Below, one piece after another: positions 33,036-63,193 of a stretch of 64,000 bases of DNA. The notes below the pieces were generated by a model that did no database searches, was not told where the DNA came from, and saw only the letters and a list, made by a program, of their open reading frames with translations. Source of the DNA: a virus. Each line of letters starts with the position of its first letter. Positions within the stretch are counted from its first letter, which is position 1. The DNA lies in IMG/VR virus record IMGVR_UViG_3300036761_001135, positions 104,689 through 168,688 of that record. One strand, 5' to 3'. The position numbers were made by a program, and so were the translations under genes.

Positions 33036-33098
33036 CGACGTGAAAAGATAGATCCGCCTTTCGTCATCGTGCTACAAAGTAAGAATTGGAGGTACGAC

Positions 33099-33845
33099 AT
33101 GCCAGGACGCGACGTGAATCCACGATTTATGCAGCGGTGTGTGGCAGATGTGACGGCGACTGGCAAAGAGCTGGGGTCGGCCTTCGCAATCTGTACGGCG
33201 CAATCCCAGAAGTCTGGCTACACTAAGAAAGGCTCGTCCAAGATGACCGGCAAGGGTGCCGCGAGGGAACGGGCTTTCAAGAATGCGCCGGATATGGACC
33301 AGAAGAATGCAGATTACGAGCGTGCGGTGCAGGCCGGGCGCCAGCAGGAGGAGATCAGCATGCGGAGCATTATTCGACAACTCGAAGAAGGGTCCAAAGA
33401 CCGCCCGCGCCATCGGGAGATCTTGTCCGAGATCAAGGCGATGGAGTTGGAAGTGCAACGCATGGCGGAGCGCATCTCGGAGGACGGCGACGAGAAGCTG
33501 GCCGGGTATGCCATGGAGGCCGCTGGCATGCTGGGCAAGGCATGGGTGCGCATGGCCTTCTTCGTGAAGAGCGCCGCTGGAAAGACGATCCGATCCGAGG
33601 AGACGGATGCGGACGATGGCGTGCTGGACGAGCGATTCGGTCGTCGTCAATCCTACAGTCGTGATCCCTACCTCACGAAGGCAAAGACGGCGGGAGTCGA
33701 TGCCAAGGGCCTGGCCTACAAGAAGGGCGACGAGGTCATGATCTACAAGGACGGGGCAACATATGCCGGGGCCAACAAGGACCAGGCGTGGCGGGATTTC
33801 CAGGCGGCCAAGGATGATGAAGCATTCATGAGTGGCGGGTACTGA
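33099..33845 (+). CDS. two-part protein with internal CTS-like start
   Basis: 248 residues; ATG 33099 has TGGAGG upstream. The first about 85 residues (FMQRCVADVTATGKELGSAF then AICTAQSQKSGY) resemble a small phage family with paired Cys. At 33360 an internal ATG with GGAGGAG six bases ahead starts MRSIIRQLEEGS, the recurring motif of this region, followed by an acidic helical domain and a KGDEVMIYKDGATY strand. It may yield two products from one gene. No known enzyme motif is seen. Confidence 0.5.
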   Translation: MPGRDVNPRFMQRCVADVTATGKELGSAFAICTAQSQKSGYTKKGSSKMTGKGAARERAFKNAPDMDQKNADYERAVQAGRQQEEISMRSIIRQLEEGSKDRPRHREILSEIKAMELEVQRMAERISEDGDEKLAGYAMEAAGMLGKAWVRMAFFVKSAAGKTIRSEETDADDGVLDERFGRRQSYSRDPYLTKAKTAGVDAKGLAYKKGDEVMIYKDGATYAGANKDQAWRDFQAAKDDEAFMSGGY

Positions 33846-33855
33846 TAGCCTGACG

Positions 33856-33869
33856 CGAACCCAGGTTCG
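33856..33869. repeat. dispersed palindrome copy 6 (CGAACCCAGGTTCG)
   Basis: Between two motif-bearing genes, immediately before the GGAGG Shine-Dalgarno of the 33885 gene, flanked by GACG and TATGG. Confidence 0.75.
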
Positions 33870-33884
33870 TATGGAGGACGGACG

Positions 33885-34649
33885 ATGCGTAGATTATTCG
33901 AGCGGTGTGAGAGGCGGATGAACGAGGAGTATGGCGGCAAGAAGACCGTTCGGGAGCCAGCGTCTCACACGGAGTATATCGAAAAGATTTTGCGGGGCAT
34001 CGGCAAGAAATATGCGACAAGTTACGCTTCGCGTACATCTGGTACCTATACGGACAATCCTCCTTACGACGCGCCAAGTACAAATATTGTGTGGAGTCTG
34101 CCAAATGGTTACGTCAAGTTGTCGATTGAGTCAGATTTGACAGCAGGTGGAGCCCCTCTGAAGACGTTGCGGGCATTTATAGAGCCAGCTTACGCGAACC
34201 GACCGATGACGAAGGTGACAGAAATTGCCAAGGCGTTGAAGGGGGAGCTGGAGGCGGGGGATACAGACTCCAGTGCGGACGCTGAGGAACTCATAGCAAC
34301 TGTGAAGAAGGCGTTTGCTGAATTCGAAAAAGAATACGCAAAACCACAGAAAGCACGCATGCCGACTCCAGTGCCTGTGTTGTCATTTAATACAGAGGAA
34401 GACATGCGATTTTGGAAGGCGGCGGTAGCCGTAGGGGGAACAGCCTCCAGTTCCAACGTGATTCTGAAGATTTCTGGTGCTGAGATTTCAATACACAATC
34501 AGGGTTACTACGGCGGATCGGTAAATATTTATACAAAAGACGAGATGCTGGACAACCATTTGGTGCGCTTGAACGTGGCAGAGCGAGCGTTCCTGCGAGT
34601 CATGCAGCAGCATGGGTGGCTGAAATCTGGCTATGTGCGAGAGATGTGA
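33885..34649 (+). CDS. hypothetical protein with diverged CTS-like start
   Basis: 254 residues. N-terminus MRRLFERCERRMNEE is a weak form of the shared motif. The body is mixed with two acidic helical stretches and ends with AERAFLRVMQQHGWLKSGYVREM. Codon use is A/T-rich relative to neighbours, suggesting recent acquisition. No fold is recognised; a packaged protein is inferred from position and N-terminus. Confidence 0.45.
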   Translation: MRRLFERCERRMNEEYGGKKTVREPASHTEYIEKILRGIGKKYATSYASRTSGTYTDNPPYDAPSTNIVWSLPNGYVKLSIESDLTAGGAPLKTLRAFIEPAYANRPMTKVTEIAKALKGELEAGDTDSSADAEELIATVKKAFAEFEKEYAKPQKARMPTPVPVLSFNTEEDMRFWKAAVAVGGTASSSNVILKISGAEISIHNQGYYGGSVNIYTKDEMLDNHLVRLNVAERAFLRVMQQHGWLKSGYVREM

Positions 34650-34675
34650 CAGACGTAGTTGGTAGCGATCCGACG

Positions 34676-34689
34676 CGAACCCAGGTTCG
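34676..34689. repeat. dispersed palindrome copy 7 (CGAACCCAGGTTCG)
   Basis: Sits 20 bases upstream of the start of the 34709 gene, symmetric flanks GACG and CATA. Confidence 0.75.
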
Positions 34690-34708
34690 CATATTGACGA
34701 GGCACACG

Positions 34709-35935
34709 ATGGCAGAAAAATTGGACCATGGCGTTGTCAACCTGCCGCTCGACAAGCGCGGGGGTGGGAGCCTGGACGCGCAGATCGACCGCTTCAAGGC
34801 GGGGCAGCAGCGAGATGCCAAGGCAGCGGCCAAGGACAAGCACGCGCGATCCGTGGAGGCCAAAGAGTTCGTGGACAACATGGACGACGCGCAGCTTCGG
34901 CGACTGGCGGAGAAGGCCGGGATGACGGTGGTGCAGGCGCGCAAGAAGCTGTTGAGCATGGCGCGTTTTGAACCGGACAAGGTGCTGCGGCTCAAGGCCG
35001 CGCAGCCCACGGAGGAGACGATGCGGAGCTTGATCCGGCAACTGGAAGAGGCGAAGAAAAGCAATCCGAAACATGCGCAGGATAATGAGAGTGAAAAACA
35101 TCGAGAGATGGATCCGAAGACGAAGGCGGCTTTTTCACGAGCATTTAGCGCTCTTGGAAGTAATAAGCAGCCTTCTGCTGGCGCATCGAGTGCGGATGAT
35201 GACAGGAAAGCTCGCAAGGAATTGGCAGATGTGAGCGCGAAGCATCGAGAGCTAGGGGCGGGTGGTGGCCACGTCGGCACCAAGAAGATTTTCACGGGTA
35301 AAAAGTCAGCCATGGACCAGCTCAAGGCCGGTGGTCCGGCGAGCAAGGGATCGGACGCGGGTGGCGAGGGGACGATGCCAGGGCCAGAGGGCGAGGTAGA
35401 TGGCAAGTGGGTGACGGTGCGTGGAAAGCGAATGTTCTTCCCGAACGATCCCGGGGAGGGCGTGCCCGAGGGTCCGTGGGGTGGTGCGCCATGGCGTCCC
35501 GGCTGGACTGGCAAGGGTGGGGATTGGCGCAAGGGACGCGGTGTTCCTAAACAAAAGGGGCAGATGAGTCTCTTTGGCAAAAACGAGGACATGCAGTCGC
35601 TATTCCAACGCCTGGAAGAGGAAGCCGGTCGGTCTAAAGAGATCGCGGACGAGATTTTGCGGCAGTTGGGTGGGAGGCGCTTCCTGGTGATGACGGGCGC
35701 GAGGAACCTGCTGGCGTTTGACACGCTGGACGCGGAGCGGAAGTGGCCTGGCTTGCAGGTGCAGTTTCCACATGGGAACGCCAAGGTGATGCGGATCGCG
35801 TTGGCACCGGACGACACCTATGTGATCCAGTTCATGACGCGGGCGGGGCGAATAACCAAGGAGATGGACGACATCTATTCGGAGGTGCTTCAGCGCGTGG
35901 TCTCGGACTACACGGGCTTGGCGTTGAGCCTGTAA
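34709..35935 (+). CDS. multi-segment protein with two internal CTS-like motifs
   Basis: 408 residues. Segment A (1-104) is Lys/Ala-rich helical. At codon 105 (35021) MRSLIRQLEEAK begins, preceded by GGAGGAG; at 35591 MQSLFQRLEEEAG begins, preceded by CGAGGAC. Segment C ends with a beta-type domain VQFPHGNAKVMRIALAPDDT...MDDIYSEVLQR. The motifs could be internal starts producing shorter proteins, or internal cleavage sites (L-E-E|A) of a prohead-protease precursor. A GGGHVGTKKIFTGKKSAM stretch links B and C. Confidence 0.5.
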   Translation: MAEKLDHGVVNLPLDKRGGGSLDAQIDRFKAGQQRDAKAAAKDKHARSVEAKEFVDNMDDAQLRRLAEKAGMTVVQARKKLLSMARFEPDKVLRLKAAQPTEETMRSLIRQLEEAKKSNPKHAQDNESEKHREMDPKTKAAFSRAFSALGSNKQPSAGASSADDDRKARKELADVSAKHRELGAGGGHVGTKKIFTGKKSAMDQLKAGGPASKGSDAGGEGTMPGPEGEVDGKWVTVRGKRMFFPNDPGEGVPEGPWGGAPWRPGWTGKGGDWRKGRGVPKQKGQMSLFGKNEDMQSLFQRLEEEAGRSKEIADEILRQLGGRRFLVMTGARNLLAFDTLDAERKWPGLQVQFPHGNAKVMRIALAPDDTYVIQFMTRAGRITKEMDDIYSEVLQRVVSDYTGLALSL

Positions 35936-35944
35936 GGAGATCCC

Positions 35945-36592
35945 ATGGGACGATTGGCGATCCTATCCGAAGCGCTCATGCAGGTGGCGCGTCCGAAGAC
36001 GCTTTCCGACGAAAAATCTTACAGGCAGGCATTGGCGTTATTGCGTGATGGCGTGATGCCGATGGGTGAGACTTGGGGAGACGGCCCGCCGCCGTTGTTC
36101 GTGCATCTTGGCGGTTCAGATTCCTGCGTAGTGATGCGCGAGCGTAGGGAGTCGGTGGACGATCCATTGCGGATGGGTCGTGGAACTCGATTTTGGGTAC
36201 GGTTTTCTGTGAAGCCAGGGCGTAGTGGAGGTGCGGGGGTCAGCATCGATCCTGTCGCAACTGAGGCGTTCATGTCGCAAGCCATGGCGGCTCCTTGCGA
36301 CGACCATCTGGCGTTAGAGCATTTGGCTGCGGCGATGCGGGTGGTGTCCGAGGAGCGCTTGGATAGCGTGCAGGGTGCCATTCGGAAGTTGTTTTGGGAG
36401 GACGGGATCTGGAGATTGGTTGGCTGGAGGAATGCGGATCAATGGGAGTTGGAGACGATTGAAGTGACTCGCGTGGATCTTGGCGAGGCGGTTGTTGGGG
36501 AAAACCGTGGAGAAGATTGGGTAGCCAAGCGGTGGGAGGCGTGGGTGCCGTTCACTTGCGATGTTGAGGCGACTCTTTGGAGGAAGAAATGA
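35945..36592 (+). CDS. hypothetical protein, N-terminal LSEA motif
   Basis: 215 residues, start after AAGGAG. N-terminus MGRLAILSEALMQ has the hydrophobic-x-Glu-Ala form of T4-type protease sites although it departs from the MRxL motif. The body has no recognised domain; a Trp-rich C-terminus (RLVGWRNADQWELE). The last four bases overlap the next start (ATGA). Confidence 0.45.
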   Translation: MGRLAILSEALMQVARPKTLSDEKSYRQALALLRDGVMPMGETWGDGPPPLFVHLGGSDSCVVMRERRESVDDPLRMGRGTRFWVRFSVKPGRSGGAGVSIDPVATEAFMSQAMAAPCDDHLALEHLAAAMRVVSEERLDSVQGAIRKLFWEDGIWRLVGWRNADQWELETIEVTRVDLGEAVVGENRGEDWVAKRWEAWVPFTCDVEATLWRKK

Positions 36593-36918
36593 AGACGATT
36601 GAACAGAAACCAAGCGGTTCAGAATACAAGTCGCGTAGTGGGTTGGACCGACTTCAGGATGGGATTGCAAAGTGGGTAGAGGGACATCCTGTTCATGTGG
36701 TGGTGAAGGCGAAAGGCATGGGAGAGGATGTCACGTTGGAGGACGATCTCTCGGCGGTAGCGGAGCAGATCGACAAGATTTTGCGTGAGAATCCCGACGC
36801 TAAGTTTTCGTTGGTTGGATTTGCAACGTATTCCACGGAGGAATCCGAGGAATCCGATGAGCAGGAAGAATCCGTCGAGCAGCCATCGATCTGGGCGGCG
36901 CGGGGCGCAGTGCAATAG
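36589..36918 (+). CDS. small acidic hypothetical protein
   Basis: 109 residues from ATG 36589 (GGAGGA upstream; ATGA overlap). Central hydrophobic-beta segment VHVVVKAKGMGEDVTLEDDL and a Ser/Glu-rich tail (STEESEESDEQEESVEQ) that is probably disordered. Function unknown. Confidence 0.45.
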   Translation: MKTIEQKPSGSEYKSRSGLDRLQDGIAKWVEGHPVHVVVKAKGMGEDVTLEDDLSAVAEQIDKILRENPDAKFSLVGFATYSTEESEESDEQEESVEQPSIWAARGAVQ

Positions 36919-36952
36919 GCGAAGGATCAGGTCGCAAACCAAGGAGGCATAG

Positions 36953-37318
36953 ATGCCGCTATCCGTTTCAACGCAGGTCTCCCCGGTAGGGAGCAAACTG
37001 ATCGCGCAGACAAGTGTGGGCGCGACACCGGACAACAACGTCACGGGCGCAGCGGGCACGCTGTACATGGTGGACGTGGACAACACGGCCAACACGGTGG
37101 ACCCAGCGTACCTAAAGATCTACAGCGATGCGGCTCCGGTCGTGGGAACCACGCCCCCGGACCTCTTGTTTTTGGTGGGCGTGAACAAGCGGCGGACGTT
37201 CGTGGTGCCGGAGGGCTGGGCCTTCACGGCGCTGTCGTTCGCGTGCGTCACGGCGGGTGGCACAGCGGGCGTAACGGCTCCGACGAATCCTGTCGTGGTC
37301 AGGATGGTGGCGTCGTGA
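36953..37318 (+). CDS. small virion decoration-like protein
   Basis: 121 residues, start with AAGGAGG upstream. Ser/Val/Thr-rich beta chain (GAAGTLYMVDVDNTANTVDP...LKIYSDAAPVVG) typical of tail or head decoration units. It interrupts the series of motif-bearing genes. Function unknown. Confidence 0.5.
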   Translation: MPLSVSTQVSPVGSKLIAQTSVGATPDNNVTGAAGTLYMVDVDNTANTVDPAYLKIYSDAAPVVGTTPPDLLFLVGVNKRRTFVVPEGWAFTALSFACVTAGGTAGVTAPTNPVVVRMVAS

Positions 37319-37908
37319 AGCGTTTCGACATGGATGTAGACACACATGAGGCGGTATGGACGTTGGGTGCGCGAGCAGCGCGAGAGGCGCGTGGGAAGCT
37401 CGATCTCGATGGAGCCTTCATCGCGGCGGTGCGTAAATACGGAACCAAAGTGTTCCCTGCGGCCAAGGGCCACGAGGATGACCCATGGTTCGAGGAATAC
37501 TTCCAGGCGTTTCGTGATGGGGCCGAAGCGGCGGGCGTGAATGAGAGCACCATGGCGATGCGTGGTCTGATTCGTCGGTTGGAGGAATCGAGTGTAAAGG
37601 ACTCCGGTTCCAGTGAGTGGGTGGCGCAGAATCTGGCGATGTTGGCAGCGAATTTCGCACAGCAGGCCACGGAGACCTATCGAGGGCGAGGGACGGCATA
37701 TCCGCGTAAGTGGTATGGCAAGATGGAGAAGGTGCTAGCGGGAAATGGGTTCGGTCCGTTGAATGCCAAACAGTTGGCCCTGTTCTCTGAGGCATACGAG
37801 CGGTTCATGGCAGCGTATGGGTCAGAGGACGGGCAGGATCTCGATGCAATAGAGCGGATTACCAAGGACATCACAAATCGCGCGTTAGCGCTCGTGAGGG
37901 CATCATGA
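37315..37908 (+). CDS. helical protein with internal CTS-like motif
   Basis: 197 residues from GTG 37315, which overlaps the previous TGA. The first 80 residues contain VWTLGARAAREARGKLDLDG and an acidic helix; MRGLIRRLEESS follows at codon 82 (37558), then a helical domain (LAANFAQQATETYRGRG). Position of the motif inside the gene parallels those of the 33099 and 34709 genes. No enzymatic motif. Confidence 0.5.
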   Translation: MKRFDMDVDTHEAVWTLGARAAREARGKLDLDGAFIAAVRKYGTKVFPAAKGHEDDPWFEEYFQAFRDGAEAAGVNESTMAMRGLIRRLEESSVKDSGSSEWVAQNLAMLAANFAQQATETYRGRGTAYPRKWYGKMEKVLAGNGFGPLNAKQLALFSEAYERFMAAYGSEDGQDLDAIERITKDITNRALALVRAS

Positions 37909-38345
37909 CAACAATGCGGATCTTGATCGAGCGGTTGGAGGAAGGCGCAAGCGCGTGGACGCCTGCCGAAGAGACGGCTTGCTTTAAGCTCGCCAAGCAG
38001 CAGATCGCCACGCACGGCTACCGCTGGAATCCGCGCGTAGATGTCAGCAGCAGTACCGTGGTGGTGGACGCGCTGGTGAAGGGGCTGTTCAACGGGCGCG
38101 AGGGCACGCTGGTGATCGAGGTATCGCGGGGACGCACGGGGGACGGATCGCAGATGGAGGCGGGGGCCTCGTTCCAGACGGGCAAGAAGTGGACGGTCGA
38201 GGTGGTGGCGTTCAAGCCGATCCCGCAGACGAAGGAGAAGAAATGGCCACCGGATGCCTTTGCCTTCGGGCTGGAGGCCGGGGACATGCTTGTGCAGATA
38301 TACGAGATGGCAATCCGCGAGGGGTTTTCCGAAGGGGCACCCTGA
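37905..38345 (+). CDS. CTS-motif protein, possible injected internal protein
   Basis: 146 residues; ATG overlaps TGA. N-terminus MTTMRILIERLEEGAS carries the motif, then a beta-rich domain (VDALVKGLFNGREGTLVIEV) ending GFSEGAP. If processed like T4 internal proteins it would be cleaved after the Glu-Glu and the rest injected. Function of the mature domain unknown. Confidence 0.5.
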   Translation: MTTMRILIERLEEGASAWTPAEETACFKLAKQQIATHGYRWNPRVDVSSSTVVVDALVKGLFNGREGTLVIEVSRGRTGDGSQMEAGASFQTGKKWTVEVVAFKPIPQTKEKKWPPDAFAFGLEAGDMLVQIYEMAIREGFSEGAP

Positions 38346-38362
38346 TCGGTGGAGATGGGATG

Positions 38363-38376
38363 CGAACCTGGGTTCG
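38363..38376. repeat. dispersed palindrome copy 8 (CGAACCTGGGTTCG)
   Basis: Between two motif genes, directly before TAGGAGGAC, the Shine-Dalgarno of the 38390 gene. Confidence 0.75.
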
Positions 38377-38389
38377 CTAGGAGGACAGG

Positions 38390-38914
38390 ATGACGAGGAT
38401 GCGGTCATTGATCGAGCGGTTGGAAGAGGCCAAGACGATGAAGGATCAGCCGGAGCCCTACAAGATTGGACAGCGGTTCCAGTTCAAGGTGGGGGACCGC
38501 GTGATCTGTAATGGGTATCCCGGCGAAGTGGAGCGGGTTGTCAAGGAGCGTGGCAGCGTCGAGGTGCGTCTGGAGCGTGGGCATGTGGAAGTGCCAGCTT
38601 CCTATCCTGATTGCTACCCAGACAAGGATGGATCTGACCTGTCAAGGTCGGACGTGAAGAGCGTAGGGGAACCGAAGAAAGAGGACGAGCCTGCGCCGCG
38701 TGGGCGCAACCTGCCAGACTCATGGCGAATCACGCAGATGTTCCGTGTGGGCAAGGATCGTTATCAGGTGCGGACTTCCTGGAAGGGGATACCGTGGGAC
38801 GAGCGTGAACAGGTAAATCTCGTGAATGACATGCGCGGCGAGCTGTGGCAGCAGCTACGCACGGGGCATTCGCGGTTGCAGTCGATGGGAGCCAACCTGT
38901 GGGTTCTGCCATAG
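38390..38914 (+). CDS. CTS-motif protein with SH3-like basic domain
   Basis: 174 residues, start after GGAGGAC. MTRMRSLIERLEEAKT motif, then a 60-residue domain RFQFKVGDRVICNGYPGEVE resembling small SH3/Tudor-type folds that bind nucleic acids or proteins, then a Pro/Glu-rich linker and a helical C-terminus. A packaged DNA- or protein-binding factor is an inference. Confidence 0.5.
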   Translation: MTRMRSLIERLEEAKTMKDQPEPYKIGQRFQFKVGDRVICNGYPGEVERVVKERGSVEVRLERGHVEVPASYPDCYPDKDGSDLSRSDVKSVGEPKKEDEPAPRGRNLPDSWRITQMFRVGKDRYQVRTSWKGIPWDEREQVNLVNDMRGELWQQLRTGHSRLQSMGANLWVLP

Positions 38915-38941
38915 CTCTCAACGCCTTGTAGGAGCATTGGG

Positions 38942-39538
38942 ATGAATGTATCGACCGACTTCGTGGGGCGACACCTGATCGTGGACGCCTCGACCTACAA
39001 CCGGCGAAACCTGACGTCCACGGACACCATCTTCTCGCTGTTCGAGTCGTTGGCCCGCAACCTGGACATGACCCTGATCATCCCGCCCATCGTATGTCGG
39101 TATCCGTTTGCGAACAGCGAGCTTGAGAACTTCTGCCACAGCGTGGAGCGCGATCTTGAGAAGCAGGTGCCGCAGCCGGACCTGGCCTCTATCCGCACCA
39201 TGCGGCAGTTTTTAGCGCGGCGGCAGGTGGAGGAGAGCGGTGTCACGGGAATCAGCGTTTGGGCGGAGTCGCATTGCGCGATCCATACCTGGGACGCGGA
39301 CAACTATTTCGCGTTCGACGCCTTCTCGTGCAAGGACTACGCGCCCAAGGACGCCCTGCGGCTGCTGCTGAACCACTTCGACGTGGAGATGCTGAACTGC
39401 ATCAACCTGATCCGGCACCAGCGGAGCGTGCCGACGCTGACGAACTTCCAGGTCAACACGAACTGGGACGTGCTGGTGGCGGGGGTCAAGATCGGTGAAC
39501 TCGACACAGTGGACTTTGACAGGATGGTGGCACAATGA
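38942..39538 (+). CDS. speD: S-adenosylmethionine decarboxylase proenzyme
   Basis: 198 residues. GVTGISVWAESHCAIHTWDA is the prokaryotic AdoMetDC self-processing region: Ser110 becomes the pyruvoyl group, with His111, His115 and the Cys130 (FSCKD) near the active site. The N-terminus HLIVDASTYN is the conserved strand. The pyruvoyl enzyme makes decarboxylated AdoMet, the aminopropyl donor for spermidine. A longer insertion (about 53-95) separates the two regions compared with short class 1b enzymes. No partner spermidine synthase is visible in the window; phage speD genes are known from some large phages. Confidence 0.88.
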   Translation: MNVSTDFVGRHLIVDASTYNRRNLTSTDTIFSLFESLARNLDMTLIIPPIVCRYPFANSELENFCHSVERDLEKQVPQPDLASIRTMRQFLARRQVEESGVTGISVWAESHCAIHTWDADNYFAFDAFSCKDYAPKDALRLLLNHFDVEMLNCINLIRHQRSVPTLTNFQVNTNWDVLVAGVKIGELDTVDFDRMVAQ

Positions 39539-40047
39539 AGACAATGAGATCGATTTTTGAGGCGGCAGAGACGAGCCAGGCAAGGCTGACGGACAAGTTG
39601 GTCGCGCAGTTCTGCGTGGGGACCAGCGGGGTTGCGGAGCGTATGGCCAGGACGGGGCAGCAGGTCGAGGGTAAGGAATTCGCGTTCCTCCAGAAGCAGA
39701 ATGTTCGGAATGTATCGAAATACTGGACCGTGACCCGACTGCCAGACGGGATCGAAGTGTTGGCGAAAGGGATCGAGGTGTCGGAGAAACTGACGCGGGG
39801 GAGCGATTTGAATCAGGGCTTACGCAACGATGACTACTGGACCGTGAAGGTGGTGTTGACCGCTGCGCGCAACGGGGTGGCGTTCAATGCGGAGTACGCA
39901 AGGGAAATGGACGAGGGGGGGAAGAAGCATATCGAGACCCTTCCGTGGCGGAATGTGCTGAGCGCCGATTCGGGGGATCTCGCGTATTATGTCATCGACG
40001 CGATTGACTGGATCTGGGACGAGATCCGCGACTACGTGAAGCCGTAG
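39535..40047 (+). CDS. CTS-like start, hypothetical protein
   Basis: 170 residues; ATG overlaps the speD stop. MKTMRSIFEAAETS is a variant of the motif (and like T4 CTS begins MKT). The body is mostly beta with a WTVKVVLTAARNGVAFNAEY strand pair. Unknown function. Confidence 0.45.
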   Translation: MKTMRSIFEAAETSQARLTDKLVAQFCVGTSGVAERMARTGQQVEGKEFAFLQKQNVRNVSKYWTVTRLPDGIEVLAKGIEVSEKLTRGSDLNQGLRNDDYWTVKVVLTAARNGVAFNAEYAREMDEGGKKHIETLPWRNVLSADSGDLAYYVIDAIDWIWDEIRDYVKP

Positions 40048-40069
40048 GGTAATTTACCGTGAGGTGACC

Positions 40070-40924
40070 ATGCGATCTTTGATCCGACAGTTGGAAGAAG
40101 CGTCTGGGGCGCGCATCACAATCGACACTGGTCCATACGAGAAACAAATCCGAGAGAGATTGCAGGATCTGTTCGATTACGTCATGGACAAATACAATGA
40201 CGAGCAGGCGGGGAGGCGGCAACCGCATCCTCGCATGGGTCCGACGGAGAAGCCAGACTGGGACGTTGACAAAGAGGTTGCGAGGATTATTGAGGAGTCC
40301 CGCAAGGAAATTCAGACGCTGGTGCGACAGGTGGAAGCGGCGCTCGGTCGGTTGGAGAGTTGGGACAGCGGGATGCCGATTGTGATCCGTCCGATGCCTG
40401 GCATGGACGAAGTGTTTCACGATCAGATCTCTATAGATCCAGCAAAGAACATCGCGGTGGAGATGGGGACGGGGAGGGACAAACCTGGGTTTACGTTGTT
40501 CTTCGATGGCACCATTGACGACGTTCTGGACGCCGGAGACCGTGACTTTTTCCGCGATCCGGCGGTGGAGACGGACTACTTCAACATTGTAAGTGAAATC
40601 GAAAAGCCGGGCAGTACGAAGCGGGCTGCGGGTAAGGTTGTCACAGTTTACACGGCGCGGCCGATTCGGGACAGAGCACAATATGAGCGTGCGACGACGA
40701 TTCCGCATGCGGTGTTCCTGACCAATGATCTCGATACGGCGGTAGGCTATGCGCATGACCTGAGTGGTAGTGGTGGTCGAGACATCTACCGCATTCGGAT
40801 CGACGAGCGGCATCTGCGGGTGACATTGCAGAGTGGGCGCGTTCGTGAGTACCAAGTGATTGGCACGACAGGGAAGGTGCCCGTGGTAGAGATCGAACTG
40901 GTTGATATGATTTCAGCTCGGTAA
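40070..40924 (+). CDS. CTS-motif protein, possible ADP-ribosyltransferase-like domain
   Basis: 284 residues; ATG 40070 is preferred to GTG 40064. MRSLIRQLEEASG starts it. The C-terminal about 95 residues have the order of an ADP-ribosyltransferase or related fold: VYTARP (193-198), VFLTNDLDTAVGYA (215-228) and RVREYQVIG (257-265). Acidic helical N-terminal part (residues 20-95). T4 Alt, an ADP-ribosyltransferase, is also packaged and injected, which is why the comparison is interesting. The match is by motif spacing only. Confidence 0.45.
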   Translation: MRSLIRQLEEASGARITIDTGPYEKQIRERLQDLFDYVMDKYNDEQAGRRQPHPRMGPTEKPDWDVDKEVARIIEESRKEIQTLVRQVEAALGRLESWDSGMPIVIRPMPGMDEVFHDQISIDPAKNIAVEMGTGRDKPGFTLFFDGTIDDVLDAGDRDFFRDPAVETDYFNIVSEIEKPGSTKRAAGKVVTVYTARPIRDRAQYERATTIPHAVFLTNDLDTAVGYAHDLSGSGGRDIYRIRIDERHLRVTLQSGRVREYQVIGTTGKVPVVEIELVDMISAR

Positions 40925-40960
40925 AATAGCGCGTACTGCTATCAAGGAGCTTTTGAACCA

Positions 40961-41332
40961 ATGAGACATCTTCTGCGACGGCTAGAAGAGGCCACGGACG
41001 CGCCTTTGGCGACGATCACGGTGCGGGTGGTGGACGGCGCGCAGGCGCGGGCGCAGGACCAGTCGTTCGCGGTAGGCGGGCACCACGAGGTGTACCCGTG
41101 GATTCCACAGGACGAGGTCTGGATCGAGCGTGGGTCGGATGGGCCGGACCGCACGGCGATCCTTGTCCACGAGCTGGTGGAGTGGGCGCTCATGCGGTGG
41201 GATGGGCTGGCCTACGACCGGGCGCACCAATTAGCCAACGCGGCGGAGGAGGCGGTGCGGTTGCGGGTCGGGGTGAAGGACGGGGAGACGCGATCTGCTC
41301 CGGCGGGCCTGCCGGTGGGAGAGGGCAAGTGA
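40961..41332 (+). CDS. CTS-motif protein with HExxE metal-site domain
   Basis: 123 residues. MRHLLRRLEEATD, then a beta part (ITVRVVDGAQARAQ) and ILVHELVEWALM (His70, Glu71, Glu74) plus YDRAHQLANAAE (His89). The pattern HExxE with a later His-x(3)-A is a recurrent small phage/bacterial family likely to bind a metal ion, perhaps a protease. The stop TGA overlaps the next ATG. Confidence 0.5.
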   Translation: MRHLLRRLEEATDAPLATITVRVVDGAQARAQDQSFAVGGHHEVYPWIPQDEVWIERGSDGPDRTAILVHELVEWALMRWDGLAYDRAHQLANAAEEAVRLRVGVKDGETRSAPAGLPVGEGK

Positions 41333-42624
41333 TGCGACAGCTCATTCGACGCTTGGAAGAGGCGGCTCCGGCTCCTGGATCCAAGGAGTGGCTGGCAGGG
41401 GTCAAGAAGTGGTGGGGGCAGTGGGTTGAAGACGCTGATCGGATTTCAAAAATTCGAGATCAACAGGATCGTCGGCAGGTTCGGGCGTGGTTTGTCGATG
41501 GTGAGAAGCGTTTGAACATGCTTGTGGACGTTTTAGTACGTCGGGCGAATCTCGTAACAGCGCCAGCCCTGGCGAGTATTACGACGGGGGACGACAACCG
41601 AGAGTACAAAGATGGAGTGGGGCGTTTGAAGGTGCCGCGCTCATATAGTGTGCTTGGATTCAAGGTTAAGCCTGAGCCAGGGGATTTAGTGCATTCGCAC
41701 TTGCAGGCGGCTTTGGATTCATTGGGCAATGTGCAGGATCATGAGCAGGATCGCTGGGTAGACATGCAAAGACGCCCGGATGAGAGGGACTGGGGAACGA
41801 CGGGCGATTTAGACGAGTGGCAAGCTTACTTGGAGATTATGCCGCATAACATTTCTGGAGTTGATGCGGACGTGCAGGCGGCGATGCGTAAGTTTGCAAT
41901 GCAAATGAAGTCGGAACCTAATCGGGAGAGCGTCATAAACGACGCAATTCCGTTGGATTATGATTTGGGTGGCATGAAAGTGCTTACCAACCCTGGGTCA
42001 TTGAGTAGTCTGTATTCTGCTGTCACTGGGGATGAGCAGGACGATATGGAAAATGCGATGGTGGATGCTGCCACGTCGAAGGAGGTTCGTGCCGGGTTGA
42101 TGCTGGCACAGAGAGCATTGGAACAGCGTGGTTTTGGTAAGGTTTGGCATGGAAAAATCTATGTGTTGCCACCTCGTCTGGCGGCTACTTTTACGAAAGC
42201 TAAGACCAGGCAGTCATTCTTGTCTGGCGGTCATTACGATCACAGCAAAGATATTGTTGTTATAAATCCAAGGCATAACTGGAAGGCAACGACCATCTCC
42301 GAGATCGTGGTACACGAACTAGGGCATCGCTACTGGTACAGATTCATGAAGGCGGGCGCGCGGGCGCGATTTGCGGCATGGTTCGACCCACGCACCAAGG
42401 CGGAACAAGATCGAGCTGGAGCGAAGTCCGAGTATGTGCCAGCGCCGACGGCGTATGGATCAGAGAGTCCGGTCGAGGAGTTTGCAGAGACCTTCGCAGC
42501 CTACGTGCTGGGAAAATACGAGGGCATAACGCTGACGGGGCCACAGAAGGCACGGTTCGAGGCGTTGGCCCTTGGTAGGGCAGCACAGAGCGAAGACGTG
42601 GAAGAGGCGCTGGGCAAAGACTAG
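41332..42624 (+). CDS. CTS-motif zinc metalloprotease
   Basis: 430 residues starting at ATG 41332. MRQLIRRLEEAAP motif, a long helical/variable middle (20-300), then the catalytic domain IVVHELGHRYW (His328, Glu329, His332) with SPVEEFAETFAAYV downstream, where Glu386 is the probable third ligand as in gluzincin-like proteases. Fully formed active site. A packaged protease delivered with the DNA is an inference from the N-terminal motif; a prohead/assembly role is the alternative. The 41600-42290 segment uses A/T-rich codons. Confidence 0.7.
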   Translation: MRQLIRRLEEAAPAPGSKEWLAGVKKWWGQWVEDADRISKIRDQQDRRQVRAWFVDGEKRLNMLVDVLVRRANLVTAPALASITTGDDNREYKDGVGRLKVPRSYSVLGFKVKPEPGDLVHSHLQAALDSLGNVQDHEQDRWVDMQRRPDERDWGTTGDLDEWQAYLEIMPHNISGVDADVQAAMRKFAMQMKSEPNRESVINDAIPLDYDLGGMKVLTNPGSLSSLYSAVTGDEQDDMENAMVDAATSKEVRAGLMLAQRALEQRGFGKVWHGKIYVLPPRLAATFTKAKTRQSFLSGGHYDHSKDIVVINPRHNWKATTISEIVVHELGHRYWYRFMKAGARARFAAWFDPRTKAEQDRAGAKSEYVPAPTAYGSESPVEEFAETFAAYVLGKYEGITLTGPQKARFEALALGRAAQSEDVEEALGKD

Positions 42625-42706
42625 CCATGACGTCCTCGACGCGGCATACTGGCTGCCTGATGGTGTTGTCACCCCGCTGTGAGGCGGTCGAGCAAGGAGT
42701 ATCCCC

Positions 42707-43087
42707 ATGACCGAGCAGTACAAGGCGTTGAACTATGCGGACGGCATGCGCGGGCTGCTGCGGTCCCTGGAGGAAGCCCTCACGGGGCGCTACACGTTCG
42801 TGTTCAAGCCGGTGAAGGAGCGCGTGGGGGCGACAGGCCCGGACAAGACGCTGATCGCGCACCCCACCAAGAAGGTGAGCGTAGAGATCTATTACTACGA
42901 GAAGCCGGATCGGTGGAGCGCGACGATCTTCGATGGGGATGCCGAGGAGGAGTTCACACCGGACTACATCGTGGGCGGCCAGGCGTTCGCCAAGGGGCTC
43001 ACGCAGTCCGAGGCGGAAGAGGCGGCGATTGAGATCACGTTGAAGTACCTGGGGGACAAACGACGCAAGGGCTGGCGGGAGCCGTAG
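42707..43087 (+). CDS. small CTS-motif protein
   Basis: 126 residues, start after CAAGGAG. MRGLLRSLEEALTG lies at residues 14-27, so the motif is internal but near the N-terminus; ATG 42746 is an alternative start. The rest is a beta strand pair plus an acidic helix (FAKGLTQSEAEEAAIEITLK). Last member of the motif series. Confidence 0.5.
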   Translation: MTEQYKALNYADGMRGLLRSLEEALTGRYTFVFKPVKERVGATGPDKTLIAHPTKKVSVEIYYYEKPDRWSATIFDGDAEEEFTPDYIVGGQAFAKGLTQSEAEEAAIEITLKYLGDKRRKGWREP

Positions 43088-54040: not shown

Positions 54041-54452
54041 ACACCCCTCCACCCCGCCCGAGGAGCGCGACAATGCCATGCGGCGATTGGCAGAGCTGGG
54101 GGCCAAGTCGCCACCACCGTCGCCGGCTGCACCAACAGTGCGCGAGAAGCTGGGACGTGTCCGGGCGAGGCCCGTGGTCCGAGTGCTTCCAGTGCGCTGG
54201 CCCTTCGGCTGGGAAGGTCCGCGACTTCCTGTGGAGCGCGAGATCGGAAGCGATGGGCGCGGCGGGATCGCCGTGGGCTGGAAGTGCCCGGCTTGCGGTG
54301 GACAAGTCGAGCGGCGTCTGTCGCGTGCGGATCTCACTCGCATGTCGCCACCTGGACGAAAGAGCAGTGTTGAGTCGCAGATCACTCACATGGTAGATGG
54401 GACGATGAACCAGCTCTGCATGACGTGCTGGGATCGTTGGGAAGCGCTCTGA
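54000..54452 (+). CDS. zinc-ribbon protein
   Basis: 150 residues from ATG 54000. N-terminal Pro-rich stretch (PPPSPAAPTVREKLGRV), then CPACGG and a later CMTC pair forming a zinc ribbon. The gene reads over the end of the coiled-coil gene. Small zinc ribbons are common in phage transcription or host-takeover factors. Confidence 0.45.
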   Translation: MTTTLTQRLRALAEHPSTPPEERDNAMRRLAELGAKSPPPSPAAPTVREKLGRVRARPVVRVLPVRWPFGWEGPRLPVEREIGSDGRGGIAVGWKCPACGGQVERRLSRADLTRMSPPGRKSSVESQITHMVDGTMNQLCMTCWDRWEAL

Positions 54453-54454
54453 CA

Positions 54455-54468
54455 CGAACCTGGGTTCG
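54455..54468. repeat. dispersed palindrome copy 13 (CGAACCTGGGTTCG)
   Basis: Lies 15 bases upstream of the -35 of cassette 4, three bases after a gene stop; flanks GACA and CGTGTC. Confidence 0.8.
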
Positions 54469-54483
54469 CGTGTCGATTCACGG

Positions 54484-54550
54484 TTGACAAACGCGACAGG
54501 CTGGTTAAATTCATAGGCGAGGGCGAGATGCCTGGCAACGGATGCCGGGT
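54484..54550 (+). promoter_or_regulatory. promoter plus stem-loop cassette 4 (PeSL-like)
   Basis: TTGACA (54484-54489), 16-base spacer, TAAATT (54506-54511), then stem GCCTGGC/GCCGGGT (54530-54536/54544-54550) with two wobbles, and AAGGAGGA before ATG 54566. Palindrome copy 13 is immediately upstream. Confidence 0.8.
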
Positions 54551-54565
54551 GCCCAAGGAGGAACC

Positions 54566-54988
54566 ATGTACCTTCATTCCTGCAAGCCGAACTCGAAGCG
54601 CGATGCCAGCAAGGACCGCAACGGCCAGAGCAATATCGTGGCACTCTTCCGCCGCACGCGGAAGGGCCAGAAGCAGATCGCTTCCGGCCAAGAGCTTGGC
54701 GTGGAAGGCGTGAACGGATCGGACTACTACGAGATCCGCATCGGAGTAGACGGAGTGCTCTACTGCTCGTGCCCGGATTACAAGTTTCGGGGTCACCGCT
54801 GGAACCGAGAGCACGCGAGCCACTACGCGTGCAAGCACATCGTCGTGGCGCTCGAACACTTCGCCACGATGGCCCAGCGCGGCGTGGCCATGGACAGCGA
54901 GATGATCGTCTATCGTCCCGAAGTGCTTGTCGCCGAGGCCGCTCGCCTCTCCGCCGCCGCCGCCGCCGCTTCAGAGAGGACCGCATGA
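54566..54988 (+). CDS. SWIM zinc-finger protein 1
   Basis: 140 residues. Cys67-x-Cys69 (LYCSCPDYKF) and Cys89-x-His91 (YACKHIVVAL) give the SWIM pattern CxCx(n)CxH. SWIM domains bind DNA or proteins, including recombination mediators. An Ala-rich tail follows. First gene of cassette 4. Confidence 0.75.
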   Translation: MYLHSCKPNSKRDASKDRNGQSNIVALFRRTRKGQKQIASGQELGVEGVNGSDYYEIRIGVDGVLYCSCPDYKFRGHRWNREHASHYACKHIVVALEHFATMAQRGVAMDSEMIVYRPEVLVAEAARLSAAAAAASERTA

Positions 54989-60014: not shown

Positions 60015-60398
60015 ATGAGTGCAAGTCTGCGTGAGATCCAGGCGTGTCCAGCAACGCGGCGCAGGGCGAGGTTCAAGGTGCAGTCCACGTCGAGTGCTGG
60101 AACGGAATACACGGTTGAGGTGTCGCTGACGGCTGGGCAGGTGACGTGTGATTGTCCTGGGTTTCGATTTCGGGGGACGTGCCATCACACGGAGTTCACC
60201 GAGGACAAGTGCGGCTGGGTGGAGGGTGGTGAAGGGGCTGAGGTTCAGACCAAGGAACAATGTTCTGGGTGTATTTGTCCACGGTGTGGGAGTTCAACAA
60301 TCCTCATTGCTGGGGCTTCCTGCATAGAAGACGATAGCGAGGCCGCGTTGCGGTCGCGTGGAGTGCGGGTGCCCCCCCCACCTCGGTCTAATCGCTGA
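60015..60398 (+). CDS. SWIM zinc-finger protein 2
   Basis: 127 residues from ATG 60015 (GGAGG at 60001-60005). EYTVEVSLTAGQVTCDCPGF, Cys45-x-Cys47, then Cys56-x-His58 (TCHH) is a SWIM finger; a CICPRC pair follows (about 90-95). Second SWIM protein in the window, distinct from 54566. Pro-rich tail. Confidence 0.7.
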   Translation: MSASLREIQACPATRRRARFKVQSTSSAGTEYTVEVSLTAGQVTCDCPGFRFRGTCHHTEFTEDKCGWVEGGEGAEVQTKEQCSGCICPRCGSSTILIAGASCIEDDSEAALRSRGVRVPPPPRSNR

Positions 60399-60400
60399 TG

Positions 60401-60409
60401 TGATATAGT
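60401..60409 (+). promoter_or_regulatory. extended -10 promoter for transglycosylase
   Basis: TG-A-TATAGT at 60401-60409, an extended -10 element without a clear -35, twenty bases before the Shine-Dalgarno AAGGAGG of the 60429 gene. Confidence 0.4.
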
Positions 60410-60428
60410 CCGGTTGAAGGAGGAAAAA

Positions 60429-61238
60429 ATGCTGAAGACGATGTGTGTTTTGTTGATTGTGTCATTGGTGCCGATGTCGGTGTGGCCTACGAATGCGGTA
60501 ACGAATGTTGTGGTTGACGTGTCGGTCCAGGAGCAGGCGAGAGTGGAGTCGCAAGCAGATGTGGATGAGGCTGGGGATTTGGCAAAAATGGCTGAGGAGG
60601 ACGGTCTCATTGATGACGTGTCGAGGGGTATTGTGCGTGTGATCGAGGCGGAGAAATGTGCGTGGTACGAGTGCGGCACCATGACGCCTCCAGAGGAGTA
60701 CATGGAGCGCGCTAGACGCATCGCTCAGGCGACTAGGACGGCCTTGTTAGAGAACGGGCTGAGCCATGCCTACTATCTTTGGGGAGCTGTTGGGATTATC
60801 ATGCAGGAGTCGCGTGGGAACCCGTGCCCATTCGGACCGTATTCGCGTCAGTGGGCCATTGATAAGAAGCTGGTGAAGAGCAAGCACATGGTCTATTGGA
60901 ACACGGACGATGCCTTGCGTGTGATGCATTCCATGTTGTCGGGAAAGACCAAGCGGCGCGGGGTTGACTCTGGTGTCGGGCAGACGATTTGGCCGCGAAA
61001 TTCAAAGATTCGAGAGGAAACAGGCCAGGTGCGCACAGCGACGCCGGAGGAGATGGTGACGGTGGAGGGCGGCGCGCGGGCGTTAGCGTATCACATGCAG
61101 CAGAATGCGCAGTTGAGTCCGACTCGTCCGTGGGCGTACTGGCCTGGGGCGAAGGACGAATTGTATGGAGCGAAGATCGAGTGGTGGGTGCAGCGGATGC
61201 GTGGACCCAAGCTTGGATCGAAGGCGCATTGGCAATGA
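60429..61238 (+). CDS. secreted lytic transglycosylase-like endolysin
   Basis: 269 residues from ATG 60429 (AAGGAGGAAAAA). Signal peptide MLKTMCVLLIVSLVPMSVWP. The SLT-like catalytic domain is GAVGIIMQESRGNPCPFGPY with Glu127 as the acid, and GVDSGVGQTIWPRN as the GLMQ-type motif. Cleaves peptidoglycan between MurNAc and GlcNAc. Secreted by the Sec route, it could work without a holin (SAR-like or periplasmic), acting as endolysin or for wall turnover. Confidence 0.75.
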   Translation: MLKTMCVLLIVSLVPMSVWPTNAVTNVVVDVSVQEQARVESQADVDEAGDLAKMAEEDGLIDDVSRGIVRVIEAEKCAWYECGTMTPPEEYMERARRIAQATRTALLENGLSHAYYLWGAVGIIMQESRGNPCPFGPYSRQWAIDKKLVKSKHMVYWNTDDALRVMHSMLSGKTKRRGVDSGVGQTIWPRNSKIREETGQVRTATPEEMVTVEGGARALAYHMQQNAQLSPTRPWAYWPGAKDELYGAKIEWWVQRMRGPKLGSKAHWQ

Positions 61239-61750
61239 TGGATTTGAGGCGACAGATCGATTTCGATGTGGGTGTCATGGGGATGTACGGGTTTACGTGC
61301 AAATTCGGGATTGCAGGGCAGGACATTTACATGAAGGTGGCCTTGCACCAATCGGAACGTCGCCCGGAGCCCATGCTTTCCTACGTCGATGTGACCTTGT
61401 CGTCTCCGAAGGCGAAGGATGAAATTTTGGTTTCGCATCGCCAGACGCGAATCGAGACGTCGAAGACGGATGATGCGCGTGCGATGATCGAGCTGCTATG
61501 CCGACAGGCGAACGTGCTGTTGCAGAGCGGGACGTGGGATTGGGACGACCTGTGTGACTCATGGAGCGGGACTCGGTTTGATCCCTGTGGTCCGTGCGAA
61601 TTTCCAGATACATGTTCCATTGGGGGTACTATCGTGTCGTCTCCGCTGGACGCGGTAGCGCGTGTTTTGCGAGATCGGTTTCCTGTTTGGGGATCGAGAA
61701 TGATGCGTGTCGATATTGCGACCACCTCACCGGTCTTGGAAGACAGATGA
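61235..61750 (+). CDS. hypothetical protein
   Basis: 171 residues, start ATG 61235 inside the previous stop. Mixed fold, with a Cys-rich end (FDPCGPCEFPDTCSIG). Next gene starts at its stop (ATGA). Confidence 0.45.
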   Translation: MMDLRRQIDFDVGVMGMYGFTCKFGIAGQDIYMKVALHQSERRPEPMLSYVDVTLSSPKAKDEILVSHRQTRIETSKTDDARAMIELLCRQANVLLQSGTWDWDDLCDSWSGTRFDPCGPCEFPDTCSIGGTIVSSPLDAVARVLRDRFPVWGSRMMRVDIATTSPVLEDR

Positions 61751-61923
61751 TTGCGGTAGCGACATGGGTTATTGGGGTGTTTGTTGGGTGTTTTGTTGGC
61801 ATGTGGGTGCGCAGGGTGGATGTGCGGCAGTGGAAAGTCCGGGCGGTTGAGATGGCGAAAATCAACAACGCTCTAATGGATCGTGTTGAATTGCTGGAAA
61901 TAGAGATGCAAAAGGAGTCGTAG
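61747..61923 (+). CDS. small membrane-anchored coiled-coil protein
   Basis: 58 residues. N-terminal membrane segment (AVATWVIGVFVGCFVGMWV) and a helical rest. Could be an i-spanin-like or lysis accessory protein after the transglycosylase; no direct evidence. Confidence 0.5.
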   Translation: MIAVATWVIGVFVGCFVGMWVRRVDVRQWKVRAVEMAKINNALMDRVELLEIEMQKES

Positions 61924-62271
61924 ATGGAAGAGGAGAATGCTGTTTCGTTGTCTAGTGTCGTCGGTTCTGAAATTGAGTACACGCCGTTGTCCACCGATGC
62001 GGATCGGGTGTTGCAGTTGCCGGCGCGGATCGTCTGGGAGATCAGCACCATCCCGCATGTTGTGGAAGATCCGTTGCCGCTGTTTGTGGCTGTTAGCGAT
62101 TGGGCGCTTCTGTATCGTGTAGGAGAGTACCTTGCGGTGCGTGGGTTTTCAGACAAGGACCAGTTGTCTGAATTCTTGGCAGACATCTATCGCACGGCGG
62201 ATATCATCGCGGTGCTGTGCAAGGGCAGGCCGGTGAGATTCAATATGCGCGTGAGCGCGAGGATAGGGTGA
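61924..62271 (+). CDS. small hypothetical protein
   Basis: 115 residues, start right after previous stop. Mixed beta-helix protein (LPARIVWEISTIPHVVED). No family recognised. Confidence 0.45.
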   Translation: MEEENAVSLSSVVGSEIEYTPLSTDADRVLQLPARIVWEISTIPHVVEDPLPLFVAVSDWALLYRVGEYLAVRGFSDKDQLSEFLADIYRTADIIAVLCKGRPVRFNMRVSARIG

Positions 62272-62275
62272 TGAT

Positions 62276-63193
62276 ATGAGCAAGAACGGAAAGATCATAC
62301 AGTTCGACCGGAACAAGGCGGCGGGTCCGTGGCAACCTTTGATTCAGATTCCCCTCTCGGAGGAGGCGGTGCAGTCTGGTGTTGCGTCAGCCTTCCAGAA
62401 CCACAGGTTTCGGGTGTTTGTGAAGCAGACGGCCAGCTCGGGATTCATGATGCAGGGGCCGGATGGGCAGTCGCATCCGATGCCGATCCTGCACCTTATC
62501 ATCGCCGGGGTGAACGGGCGCAAGCCGGACTACGCTGAGATCCAGCGCATTAAGGCCGAGTTGGTCCACGAGGAAGCGGACGCGGTGGAGTTGTTCCCGG
62601 GCAAAGGGCGCGAGATCGATTCGCCGCAGACGCATATCTGGTGCTTGCCGCCTGGGTACGTCATGCCGGTGGGCCTTATCAAGGCTGCACCGCCAGATCC
62701 AAACGCGGAGTTGATCCCTGGGTCTTCTATCAAGCGGGAAGATTTGCTGTTCTACATCGTGGCGACGCAGGCGGAAGGCGCGGATCAGGTTGTCGAGGTG
62801 TTCGCCAGCGAGGATGACGCCAAGGCGTGCTACGACGTGGCTGGGAGCGAGTTCCTGCCTGGGCAATACGCCATGTACGGGCGGGTGCCGACAGAGGACG
62901 AGGGAGCGGCGTGGAGCCCTTCGGCGGTCGAGCGGCGGAACACCATCCAGGCGCGCATCGAGGCAGCGGGTGCGGCCATGGCGGAGCGGCACAGGGCTGG
63001 GAAGACACCGACAGAAGAGGAGATGCGTGCTGGGTTCGAGCGTAAGGGTATCGAAAGGTTGGAGGCCATTTCCGAGGCAGAGCGCATCGCGGACGAGGAT
63101 GGGGACGATGCTGCAAAGGCGTCATTGGCTGAATTGAGGGAGGAGCTAGTCCGGCGTGGGCGCATTGGAAAATCGGATGGAGAAGCTGAGTAA
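62276..63193 (+). CDS. DUF7694-like N-terminal protein with helical tail
   Basis: 305 residues. N-terminal part (ILHLIIAGVNGRKPDYAEIQ, then RIKAELVHEEADAVELFPGK) and CLPPGYVMPVGL match the small phage DUF7694-type domain. The second half is a low-complexity helix (IEAAGAAMAERHRAGKTPTE...). Overlaps the next gene by 17 bases. Confidence 0.55.
   Translation: MSKNGKIIQFDRNKAAGPWQPLIQIPLSEEAVQSGVASAFQNHRFRVFVKQTASSGFMMQGPDGQSHPMPILHLIIAGVNGRKPDYAEIQRIKAELVHEEADAVELFPGKGREIDSPQTHIWCLPPGYVMPVGLIKAAPPDPNAELIPGSSIKREDLLFYIVATQAEGADQVVEVFASEDDAKACYDVAGSEFLPGQYAMYGRVPTEDEGAAWSPSAVERRNTIQARIEAAGAAMAERHRAGKTPTEEEMRAGFERKGIERLEAISEAERIADEDGDDAAKASLAELREELVRRGRIGKSDGEAE

Follow-up and report, generated by a model that had tools for sequence, protein, structure and literature searches.

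The genes located between positions 33360 and 43087 of the window, which is a 64,000-nucleotide stretch of DNA (positions 104689-168688 of the 168,688-base IMG/VR virus record IMGVR_UViG_3300036761_001135), were found to encode a series of proteins that share a short sequence motif, referred to here as the tag. In a six-frame scan, the strict form of the tag, M-[RQ]-x-[LI]-[LIF]-x-x-L-E-E, was found ten times (positions 33360, 35021, 35591, 37558, 37914, 38399, 40070, 40961, 41332 and 42746), in all cases on the + strand and with ATG as the first codon. The remaining record was also read, and one additional strict copy at genome position 80283 brought the total for six frames of the whole genome to 11. 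The shared N-terminal motif had been noticed previously in a reading of the window that used no database searches (the sequence-only reading), and every site listed there exists, though three of its coordinates (37911, 38396 and 39541) fall 3 bases ahead of the motif methionines at 37914, 38399 and 39544. The genes that include these three methionines begin 9 bases upstream of them, with MTTM-, MTRM- and MKTM-, respectively.

The source of the DNA is an uncultured T4-like phage that belongs to a new phage lineage. No close cultured relative was found when the major capsid protein (MCP) was compared with 50,697 phage records, among which the best matches were at 31% (an uncultured huge phage) and ~27% (T4-like phages), and the matches to jumbo phages, at 33-34%, covered part of the protein only. 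Relatives with capsid identity from 99% down to 39% were present at 32 loci in IMG/VR, and twelve further records taken from these loci and from a later search (G numbers below) were compared.

Tagged genes, all on the + strand, are given here with a slash marking the predicted cleavage site. The last four in the window are 40070..40924 (MRSLIRQLEE/A), which belongs to a conserved phage family with orthologue junctions LLE/S or ILE/G, 40961..41332 (MRHLLRRLEE/A), a small protein with HELVE, 41332..42624 (MRQLIRRLEE/A), the start of which overlaps the preceding stop (TGATG), and 42746..43087 (MRGLLRSLEE/A), where the open reading frame (ORF) possibly runs from 42707. The genes that start 9 bases ahead of the motif are 37905..38345 (MTTMRILIERLEE/G) and 38390..38914 (MTRMRSLIERLEE/A), both with bodies of unknown function, and 39535..40047, with a variant tag, MKTMRSIFEAAE, that is in form nearest to the tags of the T4 internal proteins (IP; MKTYQEFIAE). 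An untagged homologue of S-adenosylmethionine (AdoMet) decarboxylase (Pfam 1e-18) is encoded mid-cluster at window positions 38942-39538. Looser tags are carried by 33885..34649 (MRRLFERCERRMNE/E), a protein of unknown function, and 35945..36592 (MGRLAILSE/A), orthologues of which in G006, G010 and G011 keep L-x-E/[GS] behind differing propeptides; both had been proposed as looser forms of the motif and are plausible members of the set.

The four other copies lie inside longer frames. At 33360..33845, MRSIIRQLEE/G and the body that follows form the in-frame continuation of an AFAICT-type domain in ORF 33069-33845, and a strong Shine-Dalgarno (SD) sequence, AGGAGGAG, precedes the internal ATG. 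At 35021..35935, MRSLIRQLEE/A follows, in frame, an N-terminal part that is conserved (ORF 34616-35935, which likely starts at ~34709), and is preceded by GGAGGAG; because both SD sequences are strong and directly in front of the ATG, nested starts at 33360 and 35021 are plausible. A variant tag, MQSLFQRLEE/E (35591..35935), is found within the 35021 frame, and the tag at 37558..37908 (MRGLIRRLEE/S) is in frame behind a domain that in the relative G004 is itself led by a tag. The AFAICT-type domain of G015, which is in frame before MTKMQSLIRRLEE/A, is likewise tag-led, and in G010 and G011 another domain stands in frame before the tags of two different cargo families. The order of domain and tag is conserved, and this small AFAICT-type domain precedes the tag in genomes of very different GC content (window 33069-33359; G015 54369-54626, with the tag at 54627).

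A second cluster of ~15 genes was found outside the window at 77.9-89.8 kb in the genome, directly following the genes for the tail sheath and the tail tube. The tag in this cluster is looser, M-[TAK]-T-M-R-x-L-[IF], examples being MTTMRTLIGRLEEGS, MATMRTLFEAVEERE, MTMRTLIERFEGIMEARS, MTTMRRLSGLLTEAT and METMLKLFEARA. The two clusters together include ~26-28 tagged genes, so that the dozen or so copies reported earlier within 10 kb are present but undercount the set. Near the second cluster, an N-acetylmuramoyl-L-alanine amidase (Amidase_2, Pfam 1e-8) is encoded at genome positions 88215-88913 (L007:10215-10910).

The strict motif was found in none of 60 order-2 Markov genomes and none of 500 residue-shuffled proteomes and is far above chance, and a loose pattern was present in 22 copies versus 1.3 in the Markov genomes and 0.84 in the shuffled proteomes. 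A methionine followed by the tag head was enriched at gene starts (28/908 versus 4/4080, p = 2e-17), and the genome-wide check suggested by the sequence-only reading thus finds a motif that is not randomly spread. Agreement among the copies at codon positions 1, 2 and 3 was 67%, 80% and 44%, and the flanking sequence agreed only at chance level (28-31%). Variation at the third codon positions, together with unrelated flanks, shows that the motif is a conserved protein sequence and not a DNA repeat. The bodies were also described as unrelated, and this holds apart from the paralogue pair 80601/81243 and a short stretch, WxTVRGxxxFFPxDG, seen in tagged-cluster proteins, some of them tagged, at window 35420-35500, genome 82544, G004 40721 and G010 166631. 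When IMG/VR was searched with the strict tag as an exact DNA pattern, matches were found in the two close relatives and in one fragment from another lineage (L126); one further sequence, in two contigs, looks like a chance match. As so few sequences were matched, the strict LEE form is lineage-specific, and the wider tag form was traced through orthologues and not through the DNA pattern.

A Peptidase_S77 protein of the gp21 type (Pfam 51 bits, above cutoff; phrog_207 1e-40) is encoded at genome positions 60337-63132 (L006:1837-4629). The gene that immediately follows it codes for a gp23-type capsid protein (phrog_138 7e-68), a Portal_T4 (gp20-type) gene is located a little upstream, and an S77 protease was identified in 15 of the 15 relatives searched. 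A gp21-type protease, which the sequence-only reading had recommended looking for beyond the window, is hence encoded beside T4-type capsid and portal genes. The C-terminal half of the protease is long and coiled-looking and is probably a fused scaffold. The protease frame is also interrupted, exactly between GELDHP and SDGKTS, by an insert of 390 residues, which starts with CLTSDDFRVLTSDGW, ends with FWTGN and is missing from the close relatives G002, G004 and G005, where the flanks are near-identical; the insert-free protease of a relative is 577 amino acids long. Because its ends resemble those of inteins the insert appears intein-like, though Pfam made no intein call. The protease frames of G014 and G015 are enlarged too, with the S77 match split. 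A 1741-amino acid frame before the portal gene (genome 51424-56649; L005:12424-17646), which is probably the terminase, includes an intein splicing domain that carries endonuclease motifs of the HNH/NUMOD3 type.

The gp21 protease of T4 cuts after L/I-x-E (PMC9026906). In 27 capsid proteins, S-[LF]-x-E-[DE]-T or a sequence close to it was found just before the core domain, with P3 and P1 conserved and P2 free, which is the pattern expected for an L/I-x-E site. Its position corresponds roughly to the cut site of T4 gp23, ahead of the PNLIA..VQPM block.

A junction of the same kind was found behind the tags of relatives. Of 54 genes picked in far relatives by the tag head alone (M-[RK]-x-[LI]-[LIMF]), 13 had [LIMVF]-x-E-[AGS] within residues 6-24; the corresponding counts were 55/749 (7.3%) for internal controls and 96/1255 (7.6%) for N-terminal controls (p ~2.6e-4). 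Among 19 orthologues identified by body similarity, which are not fully independent of one another, hydrophobic-x-E/[AGS] was present in 14, versus 88 of 825 (10.7%) other N-termini (p = 1.7e-10); shuffles gave a mean of 3.3 and a maximum of 9, and the count per family was 11/13. E was the only residue enriched at P1, where it was followed by A, G or S at P1' and combined with a hydrophobic P3, and the phiKZ-type site [AGSTP]-x-E-[AGS] was not enriched.

The junctions in the 40070 family are MRSLIRQLEE/ASGARITID, MILRRLTDELGFVLLE/SSGRVIID, MLRRLTDELGFVLLE/SAGRFNLD and ..GSVILE/GIGKLNID, and those in the 85380 family are MRHLIERMERIME/ARGTEVLVKELP, MRYLIERINRLLE/ARSVEVAVKELP and MRALLRRLEE/GLSGGTAVAVKELP. 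In the zinc-peptidase family (41332), ..RRLEE/AAPAPGSKEWL is matched by ..TLLE/AAPEPGTKAWL, and in the 35945 family MGRLAILSE/ALM is matched by ..EPLME/GEEYDQA and ..ASELSE/SKEG. The junction stays while the length and the sequence of the propeptide change. LEE/A had been remarked on as fitting the T4-type cleavage rule, and the junction predicted on that basis is kept in orthologues with other tags.

Most of the cargo bodies had no database match, an exception being the C-terminal part of the 35021 protein (phrog_9437). The 41332 protein, previously described as a metalloprotease, is zinc-peptidase-like (HExxH...EExxE). Four homologues retain the EExxE as well as the glutamate and histidines of HExxH, and the C-terminal part was modelled with moderate confidence, but a specific peptidase family could not be assigned, as the PDB matches, with E above 1e-3, were only to gluzincin folds of a generic kind. 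A homologue from a huge phage (LR745208), read by eye, had no clear tag. The suggestion that 40070 could be an ADP-ribosyltransferase was dropped, as no family or fold match was found in Pfam, PHROGs, NCBIfam, a PDB profile search or the phage records, and the AlphaFold model was unusable (pLDDT 40). Resemblance of the 38390 body to an SH3-like domain, also suggested, was not significant in the databases. A tagged protein of G010 (169795-170772; VMRNLIEK...) includes LYRGI...SSWTS and by eye looks ADP-ribosyltransferase-like, with no Pfam match. The bodies also turn over rapidly. The relative whose MCP is 99% identical has the tags, but several bodies are missing or replaced, and between close relatives the 35021 sequence diverges immediately after the tag.

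Short N-terminal tags on unrelated, variable bodies, together with an S77 protease, are likewise found in T4, where IPI, IPII, IPIII and Alt carry a capsid-targeting sequence (CTS). When MKTYQEFIAE/A of IPIII was compared with MRxLIxxLEE/A, the two were found to share the 10-residue register M-[KR]-x-h-x-x-x-h-x-E/A, a similarity of pattern only. The longer tags of the second cluster resemble IPI, a longer version in which ITE/A is at residue 19. In IPIII, positions 4 and 7 matter for targeting (PMC9026906), and both are hydrophobic in the MTTMRxL[IF] form. The analogy with T4 internal proteins drawn in the sequence-only reading is thus supported at the sequence level by the protease, the junction, the non-random motif and the IPIII register, and membership of the T4 CTS system is likely. 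We consider it probable that the tags are T4-type capsid-targeting propeptides that are cut off by the S77 protease of the phage and are carried by a large, fast-changing set of cargo proteins.

Packaging, core binding, cleavage and injection of the tagged proteins are steps that we infer. The tag (M-R-x-L-I-x-x-L or M-T-T-M-R-x-L-[IF]) would form an amphipathic N-terminal helix that binds the prohead core, probably formed in this phage by the coiled-coil tail of the protease-scaffold polypeptide, and binding would build the cargo into the prohead. The S77 protease would then cut after hydrophobic-x-Glu and before a small residue, freeing the mature body within the head, and the bodies, which include the zinc-peptidase-like protein and many unknowns, would exit together with the DNA to act at an early stage of infection. 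For the frames in which a domain, a tag and a body follow one another, it is conceivable, though we would not favour it, that packaged polyproteins are cut apart in the head or that nested starts are used, such that one tag serves two products and the injected set exceeds 25 proteins.

Several observations weigh against targeting propeptides. In the MRxLIxx form, position 4 is hydrophobic but position 7, a targeting residue in T4, is polar (R/Q). Four copies (33360, 35021, 35591 and 37558) are within longer open frames, and some tagged genes (82544, 83666 and the 77922 C-terminal family) have no clear site. No such tag was found in the stretches examined of G013 and G014, the most distant relatives with the protease, and some of the orthologue starts used in the junction test were chosen by hand.

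Amphipathic N-terminal helices act as docking signals in other systems, and the second cluster begins directly after tail sheath and tube genes, so the tag could be a helix that docks proteins onto another phage assembly, such as the baseplate, the tail tube or an intracellular complex, with L-x-E incidental. Docking alone needs no such site, however. The h-x-E/[AGS] junction is under selection in orthologues even when their tags differ, and it fits the specificity expected for the head protease of the phage itself, so that docking is improbable. About equally improbable is that the tagged proteins are mainly core or scaffold parts of a large head that are digested at maturation and not delivered as effectors. 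In T4, L/I-x-E is likewise the cut site in the core proteins gp22, gp67 and gp68 (PMC9026906), and several bodies are short, charged and helical, with 79467 rich in Ala and Lys. However, at least one body looks enzymatic (the HExxH...EExxE peptidase), and even near-identical phages differ by gains and losses of cargo, unlike essential core proteins.

The divergence of 35021 directly after its tag in close relatives would also suit tags that are recombination joints, in which case a single leader was recently duplicated by recombination and has no selected function. This is very improbable, as the amino acids are retained despite divergence at third codon positions (44% identity), and the tag persists in G015 (67.5% GC) and in relatives with 66% MCP identity; the codon pattern rules out duplication of a leader as the sole cause.

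Among other phages, many packaged proteins of phiKZ and SPN3US likewise lose an N-terminal propeptide to the head protease (PMC10052503, PMC5694885), as is inferred here. Those propeptides are mostly 111-254 residues long with the site S/A-x-E, whereas the propeptides predicted here are ~9-25 residues with hydrophobic-x-E. In phage P1, an N-terminal segment of no more than 30 residues sends the large DarB protein to the head, but no motif common to the Dar proteins was found (PMC9024508), in contrast to the one motif that is common to many proteins here. T4 has four tagged genes with the core M-K-T-[YF]-x-E-F, whereas the phage studied here has ~26-28 with the core M-R-x-L-I, and some of its tags are internal.

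The system is likely of a known kind, that of the T4 internal proteins, and is notable for its scale, its lineage and the internal tags. If the targeting propeptide interpretation is correct, a start codon followed by the tag would mark otherwise unknown genes whose products ride in the virion and are delivered at time zero, and would supply a sequence rule for finding injected proteins in uncultured phages of the T4 superfamily. In addition to the signal of T4, the tag would be a candidate for a second loading signal, and T4-type head loading would accommodate a cargo several times more varied than the few internal proteins of T4.

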